From Tomocerus qinae (taxonomy: Eukaryota > Arthropoda > Collembola > Entomobryomorpha > Tomoceridae), in NCBI GenBank assembly GCA_020055645.1, contig CM034547.1, forward strand, positions 8,541,280 through 8,605,279: DNA of 64,000 nt, written 5' to 3'. The notes beneath the pieces are model-generated. The model was not told the DNA's origin, ran no database searches, and saw only the letters and a list, made by a program, of their open reading frames with translations. Every line of letters begins with the position of its first letter. Position 1 is the stretch's first letter. The translations under genes and the position numbers were made by a program. This document shows, one piece after another, positions 1 through 40,878 of the stretch.

Positions 1-3000
1 ATATCCGTTCCTTTCAGAGAGCTTTTCTAATTTTTTGCTGTGGTTTTCGTTCCTTTGCGTTTGCTTCTTTCTCATTCTCAGGTATTCTATGATTCTACTT
101 ATTTCGGCTATCACTATGTCTTGTAACTTGTATGTATGCTTATTTGTGTGTGTGTGTGTACCTATACTTATACATAATAATACATGCTGCATACCTATTG
201 GCTTAAGGGAATGTTCTGTAAGACAGGTACCTAGTATTACTTAGGTATTACAACAACGGTGGGTAGTATGAGTATGTAATGTAGTGATTCTATGCGAAGT
301 TTCAGTACTTATCTGCATAGTATAAATATGTATCATACATGTACAAATGAATATGGAGCCCCTAGTATCTATGTAAGTGTAAAAGCAAGAAGGTGGTATT
401 TATCTATCTATATAAGGAAAGGTAGACTAAATGTATGTACTATAAGTATACATTTTGGCATGGGTTAGTAATATCATGAAAAATATAATATTGTATTTTT
501 TGTAGTGCTGCTAAATATGTAGTGCATAATAAAAATATGCACACTTCACTGTACTGATCTTCAAAATCTTCAATAGTAGTCGATAGTCTAAAGTGTACTT
601 TACTTTGGTTCCAAATGCCAGATGCAGTATAAGATGCCTAATGCCTCCCTGCACCCAGCATACAAAAGAACTAGGTAGGTAGCTTACTGACATGACAGTA
701 CAGACACAATACGTGTATCTTTGCATAGTGAAACATAAAACGTCCAGAGATCTATCATAATATACTTGGATAAGTGTACATCCTGTAAGAAAAATAAAAT
801 TTTCCCATTAAGGCAAGCAAAACATTAAAATTCTTAGTTTGTTTTATTAAACTAGTATTAAAATTAAAATCACTAAATGTATCATTTACACTGTCCACTG
901 CCTCCACTGTCTATAAATTATCAGGAGGTTTTGGTACAATCGTACAATTTTAAACTTTCGAGAACATCTTGATTGTACTTACTATCATATGACATTATGG
1001 CCATTAGAGTGAGGAAATGCCAATTTTACATCATGAGTAGTAAAGTAAAAAATTAAGTTGAGTTCGTGAGTCTAGCCGGTTGTGGTTTTGGTAGTGCTAA
1101 ACTTTGGAATTTTGCTTCCAGTGTGTATCCGTTTACTCAGTATTATTATTATTTAGTACCTGTGTCTGTACCTACATGAATTCATTCATTAATGTATCTT
1201 CAAATATATTGTTCATATGACTTTTTGGCGTTTTTATAGAAAACATTACTGTTTGATTGTCTTGGTTGTTATCTTGTAGTAGTAGTGTACTTGATCCTTT
1301 GCGCTGATGCTGATACACTGACTAGATGATTTTAGTGTTGGCACTTGACATATGATGCCGGTTGTACATGCTGTTTATAGAGTCTTGTCTTGTCTTAAGT
1401 TGAAGGTCTTATTGAAATGCTATTGTATGTGTAAGAAAATTGTTTGTAGTGGTGAATTTATAATGGTAAAGCGAATAAGGATTAAGTGTTAAGTATCTAC
1501 ATACTGTTATACTTTTGTTAGTTCAGTACCCTTACTCCCTATACTTTCACTTCATAATTTGCAAATGGAGAAAATAATATTACCAAAGAAATGTTGTTTA
1601 AATGGTAAAACCTTTTATTTTTGATTCAGTTTATTATAAACTATTTTCTTTCTATGTATTCATACACATTTTGCATATCGTTGTTTTGGTCCTATACGTG
1701 TAGGACTTCCACAGCTATATATTATAAGTAACCAGTAGTAGATACATAATATACATAAGATACGCAAGTTTTGTTGAATGTGTTATTTATATTTTAGAGC
1801 AAAGAGACGATTAAGTTCTATTCTAGAATGACTTTCTGTTCCTGAATGTTGTATGTACAGATACTGCTACTTTTATGCATCGCATCTATCCTATTATTAT
1901 ATTGAAATGTTGGTTTGTGAGGTGTAGCTTTAAAAATAGCTGTTGTTTGATCTCGAGACATTCTTAAATTCACATAAAATGTCCACAAATAAATACCATA
2001 TTTGCCACAGGTTGGCCCTGTATAGAGTGAATGTTTTTCGTTTCATATGTAAAAGACTCGGTACTCCATAGTCCATAATACGAATTTTGACAACATGCCA
2101 GACACCAGATCTAGGGGTACCTATAATAATATACCTTATACCTATTTATTATGTGTATGTTTGTAGACTAGACTGGGGTTATGTTTGGTATGATTTGCAT
2201 TATTATCTGTTTGTACACTTAAGTTATGTTTCGTTTGAAAGAAAATACTCATTCTTCAATTGTGTAAACATCTTTGTGGCTATTGTTTATCGGTAGAAGA
2301 ATTATTTTTAAGCTTTGATTTTGTCGTTTGTAATATTATATAATGTATATAGTAAATGTAAACAATTATAATATTATGATGGTTAAATTAAGTTAGTAAG
2401 TACATTGCCAAAGTTTTACACTTCAATTTGGAAGCAAAAGCAAGTACAAGTGGAAAGCCTTCATTTTCAAATAGCCGATTCGGGAAATGCGAAAAATAAA
2501 TGTTTGAATTTCTTGACGGGGAAAGTCATAACGATTATGTTTAATTTGTAGCATAAGCGTATGGCTTTTCCCCTTGAGATTTTCGATTGTTCAACTACGT
2601 TGTTCTTCGTTCCACACAACAACGAACGATGAAAGAATATCCTTTACAAATTAGAATGAAATGTAAATTCCAATTACCTAAATCCTACAAGTCCGTCTGA
2701 ATGTTTTGATTCATTTCTGGATATACTACATGTAAGGTTTGGGAAAGTTTAGAACACCTAAGATAGGATATCGCATCGCTTAGTACTGGTTACTTTGACA
2801 CTCTTTACTTGTACCCTTAAAAACCTTTGCCATCCTATTCTATCGTGTCGATTTCCATTCAATGTCAGTGGTTGGTATCTATTCGCGCCATTCTAAATCT
2901 ATTTAATGCTTAATATTACTGAGATAGATACATTTATGTGCCAACTTCATCATAATTTCAGTCAGAATTTGAAATTATAATTCCGTGGAAAACCCATAAT

Positions 3001-38400: not shown

Positions 38401-40290
38401 AAGTAAAAAATCACATTCTTCTTTTATTCGAATAGAAAAATGTCTTTTGTGAAGGAAAAGAAAATGCCATTGGCTGCACTCGGCATTATTCTCGCTATTT
38501 CACAGATTGACTGACGTGGCGAATCCTAATTCACTTTCTACCTCTTTAGATCATAATAATGCACATAGTAGGGATTGTTTGATTGATGCGATGAAAAACG
38601 ATAGTTCTGATTGCACAAAAGCCCCTTAAGTATCACGGCATTCTTAACTAATCCCAGTGTAATAGATACCCATTGTATTTAAAATTGCTTTTTTGCAACT
38701 TTTTACCTACAAAGTTGAGATTTGGACATTGCCTATCCTTTTCTTGCCTCTGCGTGTGGAAACGGAGTGGACACTTACAAAACATGTGCATAATCCCATG
38801 ATCTAATTCTGATAAAATGTTTAATAGTTGTGAGATTCCTCTCTCCTGGTAGTATAGTTAAATGTAAATATAATCTCATCCTTATCATCATTATGTTATA
38901 AGGTAAGTGATTTACACTTACTGTACTGATACGTTGTACTACTAAACTACTAACGTAATATCTATCAAATATAGTCATTTTTCCATCTAGCAGAGCTCTA
39001 TTAATTTTTAAACTCTTATTTATTTAATGAACACATTATTGGTACGTATGAAAACTTTAACCAATTTTGTTAATAATTTAATGTATTCAATAATGTACCC
39101 CAACGCATACCCTCATGTACTAAAGTATGATATTAAGCACTAACTAAGCTATGTGTCTTCAAAATTTGGATGCCCTAACTTCTTGCGCCCAGTGTCAAAT
39201 ATTCACTTGTAATAATGTGCTCTTATACGGTACTCCCCTTTAGCACGTGAAGATATACGAATCGGTATTTACAGATGCAAACAGATGTCTACATATATTA
39301 TTAGAAGGTGAAATTATAGTTTTGAAAAACTAACTAATAGGTTCATGTTTACTTTGAGTTTGAGAATGCTGTGTTACGCAATAATTATTTTGCTATAAAC
39401 TCTTGCCTCATTTACCTCCACTAATTTATTCCCAATATGTTATTAATCGTAGCATACCTACTAATCATTCATTCGCCTTTAGAATGTACTCTTAATGAAG
39501 AATTGATCCATTTACCTAAACTTTATTGCCAGCATATAGACAGACGTAAGTAGTAATTATAATAATGCACACTGCAGTCAAATTAACTTGCATATTCATA
39601 AGAGTTGCAGTAATGATATAATATGCACTATATGGCACGTTGTATTTAGATCAGTGTCTGTACCTATTGCAATTCTCAATGTCTTACAATGTATCTAAGC
39701 AATTGAAGGAATGTTGTGTTTCGTGTACTACATAGTACTAACATCATAAATGGCTTTATAAAATAAGTTTAAAGAACTCTATAACAATTAGTTATTTATT
39801 TGAATATGCACATTAGGTGTATACAAGAAATAGAAGTAACAATGTGAAAAGGACAGGAGAAACAAAGACTCTAAAGTAAGATTGATGGTCGACGGTGCTA
39901 GTTGTATAAATCGAAGAGAGGAAAATACATTTAGCAAGTGGTCAGCTGTGTGTGTCAAGCCTGTGTCTGTTTCTCTCCTCTACTGATCTATTCTTAAACC
40001 TTAATCTGATTGAAATTCATTGGAATTAGAACTACGGCAGTGTGATTATGATTTCCTTTTGAGATGAAATAGATTGCTTGCATTATTTCTGTCTCTTTAT
40101 ATGGATCAGGTTGAATGAATGTACAAAGCTGGTACAAAATGTATCTGCAACTATTCACTACTCACACTACATGATGTACATAACTCTGTTAATTACAATC
40201 AGAATAGCCAACTGTTGCAAAACCACTAATGTAATTGATTGTAGGCTACCTTTTGAATTCTGATGAAACAATCTTACATAGACATAGTAC
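35401..40290. other. AT-rich intergenic DNA, no gene seen
   Basis: Stops are frequent in all six frames and I found no RNA gene or clear repeat. One small patch that is less AT-rich lies near 35895-35950. Confidence 0.45.
40282..40290 (+). repeat. Left target-site duplication of the foldback element
   Basis: ACATAGTAC, identical to 40870-40878 on the far side of the element. Confidence 0.8.
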
Positions 40291-40869
40291 GGTATCATTA
40301 GATTTCCTCCCCGTTGAGGTTTCCTCCCAGCTTAGATCTCCTCCCAGTTAGACTACCTCCCGTTAGATTTCCTCCCTGTTAGACCTCCTCCCGTTAGACT
40401 ACCTCCCCTTTAGACTACCTCCCGACACGCAAAATATAAGGTAACGACAGAATGAATTTCGAAACATCAAAATGTTAGCTAAGGAAAGAACTAGGGTAAG
40501 GAAAAATGGTCACTACTACTAATTACTTAATAATAATATGTATCGTAATTATTAGTAGTGTGCAGAGTGGCCAAGCGGGCAGGCTTTGTTAACAAAAGGA
40601 CATATTATGTATTACTAACTACTCAAGGCGATAAATTAACCTTGTCTGTTGTTATCATCCCATACACCCACGTCTCAAGTTACTAAGTTTTGATGTTTCG
40701 ATTTTCATTCTGTCGTTACTTTATATTTTTTGTATCGGGAGGTAGTCTGACGGGGAGGTAGTCTAACGGGAGGAGGTCTAACAGGGAGGAAATCTAACGG
40801 GAGGTAGTCTAACTGGGAGGAGATCTAAGCTGGGAGGAAACCTCAACGGGGAGGAGATCTAAGGTAACC
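40291..40869. mobile_element. Foldback (long terminal inverted repeat) transposon, non-autonomous
   Basis: A 579-base element. The left arm 40291-40472 and right arm 40688-40869 (182 bases each) are reverse complements with roughly a dozen mismatches by eye. Ends read GGTATCATTAGAT and, on the other strand, GGTTACCTTAGAT. Each arm contains about eight short tandem units built around TTAGACTACCTCCC. The direct repeat ACATAGTAC flanks it exactly at 40282-40290 and 40870-40878, a perfect 9-base target-site duplication. Long arms with internal tandem units plus 9-base duplications are typical of Foldback and Mutator-like non-autonomous elements. There is no ORF for a transposase in the 215-base centre, so it would depend on an enzyme encoded elsewhere. 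Arm similarity suggests fairly recent movement or gene conversion. Confidence 0.88.
40511..40560. repeat. Small inverted repeat nested in the foldback centre
   Basis: CACTACTACTAATTAC (40511-40526) and GTAATTATTAGTAGTG (40545-40560) are reverse complements with one mismatch, separated by 18 bases. Confidence 0.8.
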
Positions 40870-40878
40870 ACATAGTAC
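40870..40878 (+). repeat. Right target-site duplication of the foldback element
   Basis: ACATAGTAC, identical to 40282-40290; both copies abut the terminal GGT of the inverted arms. Confidence 0.8.

Follow-up and report, generated by a model that had tools for sequence, protein, structure and literature searches.

The window analysed here is a stretch of 64,000 nucleotides from contig CM034547.1 of the Tomocerus qinae assembly. A precursor of mir-965, which has an arthropod range, lies in it and adjoins a large chromodomain-helicase-like gene, presumably kismet-like. Positions 40291–40869 (plus strand) are occupied by a complete non-autonomous foldback element of 579 bp, whose termini are common to other copies of a family designated F1. 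Direct reading shows a target-site duplication, ACATAGTAC, on each side of the element (40282–40290 and 40870–40878); the two copies match perfectly, as stated in a first-pass annotation made from the letters of the window.

The inverted arms at 40298–40472 (plus) and 40688–40862 (minus) are 175 bp long and 94.9% identical (blastn, E 5e-74); these arms, with one sub-match inside them, were the sole inverted repeat detected by blastn in the window at E ≤ 1e-6. The left arm starts with eight CTCCC units (40298–40424) and continues into a non-repeated inner arm; the right arm includes an inner-arm box (40695–40715) and eight CTCCC units (40736–40862). The units follow in identical order in both arms at a spacing of 15–16 bp (tandem period 15–16, or 31 as a dimer, ∼8 copies per arm), in agreement with the about eight CCTCCC-centred units per arm noted in the first pass. 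Two structural traits are thus present in the window element: arms longer than 100 bp after the terminal cap, a trait of Mutator-like elements (MULEs), and arms built from short subterminal tandem repeats, a trait of Muta/Phantom type-2 Foldback elements. The arms had been described as 182 bases long; the inner 175 bp are indeed inverted, but the outermost seven bases at each end are not. These caps, GGTATCA at 40291–40297 (plus) and GGTTACC, reading inward, at 40863–40869 (minus; read directly and from the alignment of copies), show no inverted symmetry with one another; the arms become symmetric past base 7.

The same asymmetry is seen in other members of the family. In 15 of 26 aligned F1 copies the best arm alignment starts exactly past base seven on both sides; in one copy (L009) the arms are symmetric already from base 3–4, and in the other ten the start is shifted, mostly by repeat units. 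The number of units differs among F1 copies and often also from one arm to the other within a copy. The core between the arms of the window element (40473–40687, plus strand; coordinates from the blastn alignment of the arms) carries a 27-bp motif at 40560–40586 (plus), GTGCAGAGTGGCCAAGCGGGCAGGCTT. Folded as single-stranded DNA, the whole element has a minimum free energy of −216.7 kcal/mol versus −59.3 ± 4.7 for 100 shuffled sequences.

We searched a genome of 334 Mb in 115 contigs. Among the best 40 of 227 candidate places, which were scored in a DNA search with the window element, eight belong to a sister family, F2 (L028, L030, L033–L036, L038 and L040), and one (L032) to a family F5. The F1 terminus pattern with at most two mismatches matched 64 ends in the genome, versus 6 for the reversed pattern; at up to three mismatches the counts were 218 and 70, with many of the listed three-mismatch matches belonging, by eye, to one other repeat. 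The F1 termini collapse to 44 elements, and the family is multicopy, as had been predicted. Four of the 44 elements are situated on the largest contig (C1) versus 18.5 expected by length (P 1.7e-6, uncorrected).

Fifty-seven loci (L001–L040 and L071–L087) were read. With end pairing at four mismatches a candidate pair of ends was present in 31 of them and no pair in 26; two loci (L007 and L018), whose sole pairs were internal-looking or implausible, were excluded, leaving 29 two-ended copies. Perfect duplications flank 15 of these, 9 bp long in ten copies and 8 bp in five, while pairing of left and right flanks from different copies gave 0 perfect duplications in 812 comparisons. The remaining 14 copies have imperfect flanks (7/8 matching bases in three, 7/9 in one, 6/8 in one and weaker matches in nine). 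A target duplication of 8–10 bp, mostly 9, which is another MULE trait, is therefore present in F1; the 9-base duplication given in the first-pass annotation is the commoner form among the perfect ones, and the family as a whole makes 9 or 8. Copies end at the same bases and carry duplications of their own, as expected of a transposon.

Two copies at different sites with different duplications (L002 and L003) have a single mismatch in 588 bases, so the spread of F1 must be recent, as the first pass had supposed; another such pair (L013 and L016) has six mismatches in 580. F1 is a real, recently spread, multicopy transposon family with sharp ends. A search for empty sites with 15 joined flank sequences found none spanned elsewhere among the best 40 of 177 candidates; the many matches to the right flank of one copy (L021) extend leftward past the junction by two bases at most.

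The longest open frame across the 29 F1 copies has 88 codons. No coding capacity was seen, which bears out the description of the element as short and non-autonomous. We looked for a CTCCC-armed element carrying a MULE gene in the 57 loci of the F1 search, in 30 of the 59 genomic loci matching the MULE transposase profile PF10551 and in a copy located through the inner-arm box, and found none; the longer, arm-sharing, MULE-encoding copies that the first pass had proposed to seek did not turn up among the loci read. In 13 of the 15 terminus loci inspected over 720 bp (L072–L078, L080, L081, L083–L085 and L087) a partner end was absent. Partnerless ends were read ∼1.1 kb inward, with the end at C4:9282641 left aside. 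Ten of these 13 loci yielded a longest frame of at least 80 codons and three (L074, L076 and L077) had no frame of that length; Pfam identified no transposase in the ten frames. The sole Pfam match was a TrAA12-like domain (E 1.7e-9) at L080, where a lone arm is situated just upstream of the frame; the frame looks like that of a secreted host protein. At another of these loci (L078) the CTCCC arm is followed, by eye, by a tandem satellite with a period of ∼21–22 bp.

Some of the PF10551 loci themselves provide close structural parallels in this genome. Most of the 30 fetched loci had no detectable ends. Inverted ends together with 8- or 9-bp duplications were found in seven (L042, L045, L047, L049, L051, L052 and L070) by a scan with a tolerance of 14 bases at each end, so that chance matches occur; short-repeat duplications in L069 and in two loci of another superfamily, Merlin (L089 and L094), were discounted as such. 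Three of the seven (L045, L047 and L049) have caps GGTTNNN/GGTATNC and perfect 8-bp duplications, and L042 has caps GGTTCCA/GGTGTAC and a 9-bp duplication; L050 has the same ends as L045 without a duplication. These five loci have 21–22-bp tandem units in both arms, whereas L051, L052 and L070 have different caps and lack tandem arrays in both arms. L042, L045, L047 and L049 resemble F1 in a GGTT... cap paired with GGTAT... or GGTGT..., in tandem arms and in 8- or 9-bp duplications, with the likeness of the caps amounting to 4–5 bases each and noticed post hoc. They differ from F1 in the length of the units (21–22 bp versus 15–16 bp), in arm sequence and in having MULE transposase domains. Caps, arm plan and duplication length together support the Foldback or Mutator-like affinity that the first pass had given to the element.

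The resemblance is one of plan. The F1 terminus was absent from the 30 of 59 PF10551 loci, read with ∼1.5 kb on each side, and neither CCTCCC nor GGGAGG occurred more than once per locus. When 93 open frames taken from those 30 loci were compared with the 29 F1 elements by tblastn, no match reached E ≤ 0.01, and the window element matched the fetched MULE loci only through 40 bp at its core motif (L046), other matches having E of 0.16 or worse. The MULE loci L046 and L096 have only these ∼40 bp around the motif in common with F1, neither arms nor caps being visible there. L096 encodes a 489-aa FLYWCH and MULE frame without stops (L096:2390–3859), and no inverted ends were recognisable in 7.5 kb; this is possibly a gene adopted by the host.

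A different source of transposase was suggested by a copy of 9.3 kb. The inner-arm box occurs at 316 places with at most one mismatch, versus none for the reversed pattern, and among the 100 places listed were those that led to this copy at C2:36.477–36.486 Mb, with its ends in L097 and L098. It has CTCCC arms and an 8-bp duplication, GTCATTTT, and between the arms are two matches to PF20700 (E 7.6e-13 and 2.9e-26), a ‘Mutator-like’ transposase that might be taken to move F1, as well as exonuclease-like exons (RNase_T, E 0.007, below the cut-off). We rejected the gene and the exons as the copy's own, as they are part of another element nested twice. When 3000 bp of the coding DNA were used as a query, 39 places among the best 40 of 83, its own included, matched bases 1–3000 or 1–2999 at 96–100%, one of them 4.3 kb away inside the same 9.3-kb copy. 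In 40 of 40 other places listed the similarity stops at L098 bases 400–409, short of the arm. When 109 PF20700 places were set against the listed places of the inner-arm box, the terminus and the core motif, only two fell between arms, both in this copy. Because its coding DNA belongs to a separate element, the 9.3-kb copy is read as a foldback element with insertions. The nested transposon (L099 and L098:1–401; C2:36.478–36.486 Mb) is high-copy and ∼4.3 kb long, judged by the spacing of its tandem copies; in this copy its PF20700 transposase has stops, and the exonuclease-like exons are convergent to it. Its outer ends lie, by eye, at TTAA, whereas the 8- or 9-bp duplications of F1 follow no TTAA rule. 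Movement of F1 by the PF20700 transposase is thus scarcely credible.

Duplications of 8–9 bp and ends starting with GG could also indicate a non-autonomous element of the Merlin superfamily, which is represented in the genome by 19 matches to PF12762; eight of these loci were fetched as a control. (Four of the 19 matches are on a single contig, C7, which we guess to be that of a bacterial symbiont.) Four loci (L090, L091, L094 and L095) do have GG ends and 8-bp duplications at long arms. Their caps, GGAACA or GGAACAT with GGCTAA, symmetric past ∼5–7 bases, are nevertheless unlike GGTATCA/GGTTACC, so that the F1 ends are not of the type seen in these four loci. The long arms of the four lack short tandem units, while those of F1 are tandem, and all four duplications found in the eight loci read out of 19 are 8 bp long, compared with 9 bp in ten of the 15 perfect F1 duplications. 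We regard a Merlin origin as very unlikely. An affiliation with the P superfamily, where Galileo is a long-armed foldback element, or with foldbacks of the hAT type, whose target duplications are 8 bp, is very improbable: two-thirds of the perfect F1 duplications (10/15) are of 9 bp, and the F1 caps do not resemble the CA... or CAG... ends of these groups.

F1 thus very probably belongs to the Mutator (MULE) superfamily, as a non-autonomous DNA transposon whose ends are of the type-2 foldback kind. By analogy, its plan fits a Mutator-type element of the Phantom/Muta-like kind in the structural features tested, F1 being known without a transposase of its own. We infer that a PF10551 MULE transposase moves F1 and that the CTCCC units would be its binding sites. 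In the mechanism that we propose, a MULE transposase from another element would bind the repeated CTCCC units of the arms, make its cuts at the two caps, GGTATCA and GGTTACC, and insert the element into a staggered 8- or 9-bp cut, the fill-in of which would give the flanking duplication. Exchange from arm to arm, through hairpin pairing or gene conversion, would keep the unit order equal in the two arms. Such exchange is the likely cause of the equal order in the window copy; unit number varies among copies and arms, yet the window arms share one order.

Relatives of F1 retain part of this structure. Besides F2 (the L028 group) and F5 (L032), we recognised F3 (L097/L098) and F4 (L100, one arm read). 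The ends of F2 are GAATACG/GGTATCAGC, and L028 has, by eye, an 8-bp duplication, GAGGAAGT. The arm units differ among F1–F5 yet CTCCC is retained, the F5 units being more degenerate; a core is common to F1, F2 and F4. The 27-bp motif of the core was found at 58 places in the genome with at most three mismatches and at none for the reversed pattern. It is present in eight of the 29 F1 copies and missing from 21, and also from L032, L097 and L098. Identity of the motif is 93–96% among F1, F2, F4 and MULE locus L096, where it is located ∼530 bp beyond the intact FLYWCH-MULE frame. In the 40 bases on either side, identity between families is 77–86% upstream and 52% downstream, and 28–47% against L096; L018 compared with F1, F2 and F4 gave 85–88% for the motif and 78–86% upstream (ungapped). 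All of these rows were picked by at most five mismatches to the motif, a choice that favours high values.

In its letters the motif looks like a tRNA D arm or A box. A tRNA gene at this position was rejected, as no tRNA was reported by ARAGORN (bacterial settings) or Rfam. One could combine both observations and suppose that the units of F1–F5 have changed except for CTCCC at 15–16-bp spacing, in both arms together where both were read, as if transposase binding fixed CTCCC and exchange between arms spread the rest, and that the motif is a functional internal element, serving as a Pol III A box or as a binding site. We consider this joint reading unlikely, because 21 of 29 F1 copies lack the motif and the compared rows were picked by likeness to it.

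Searches of the open-access literature by sequence word and by topic, with Repbase and Dfam outside their scope, found no description of F1; a match to one of three sequence words, in a paper on a cyanobacterium, was taken as chance. As far as this literature shows, F1 is so far undescribed and ordinary in kind. It changes no general view; with it, the MULEs of arthropods gain a foldback family that spread recently. Caps, unit spacing and 8- or 9-bp duplications can here be compared within a single genome between elements that carry a transposase and non-autonomous ones, and F1 with the MULEs of its host offers natural material for studying how tandem-repeat ends are read by a transposase.

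Several known systems share this design. FB elements of Drosophila, classed as MULE-NOF, have long tandem-repeat arms and 9-bp duplications, as does F1, the likeness being one of description only. Muta1, a MULE of Aedes aegypti, makes duplications of 8 or 9 bp, and each of its 145-bp arms contains nine 12-bp repeats separated by 3–4-bp spacers; the authors of its report classed it as a type-2 Foldback element. Muta5 of the same mosquito has nine 15-bp repeats per arm (PMC5225508). According to the same text, nine tandem repeats and a short motif at the terminus form the arms of both (145–151 bp), both have non-autonomous derivatives with a variable number of units, and such repeats occur in 10 of the 12 long-arm families of that study (PMC5225508). 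Another report places the Muta elements in the Phantom group and expects many more arthropod MULEs (PMC6446971). Judged from these texts, Muta1 and Muta5 resemble F1 in their 8- or 9-bp duplications and in arms where tandem repeats follow a short terminal motif. The likeness is of plan and not of arm sequence, and their transposase gene is known, while none was found for F1. A further match is with Tm1 of Meloidogyne root-knot nematodes, a Phantom-like Mutator/Foldback family which has asymmetric 7-bp ends (caps CGGTTAA/CCTACCC), 9-bp duplications, 13–15-bp tandem units in variable number, MITE-like members and, in the core of some members, an RNA-like motif, the histone hairpin (PMC3169594). 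F1 has likewise asymmetric 7-bp ends, 9-bp duplications, short tandem units and an RNA-like core motif in some copies; it differs in host, in the sequence of caps and unit, and in a motif resembling the tRNA D arm instead of the histone hairpin.
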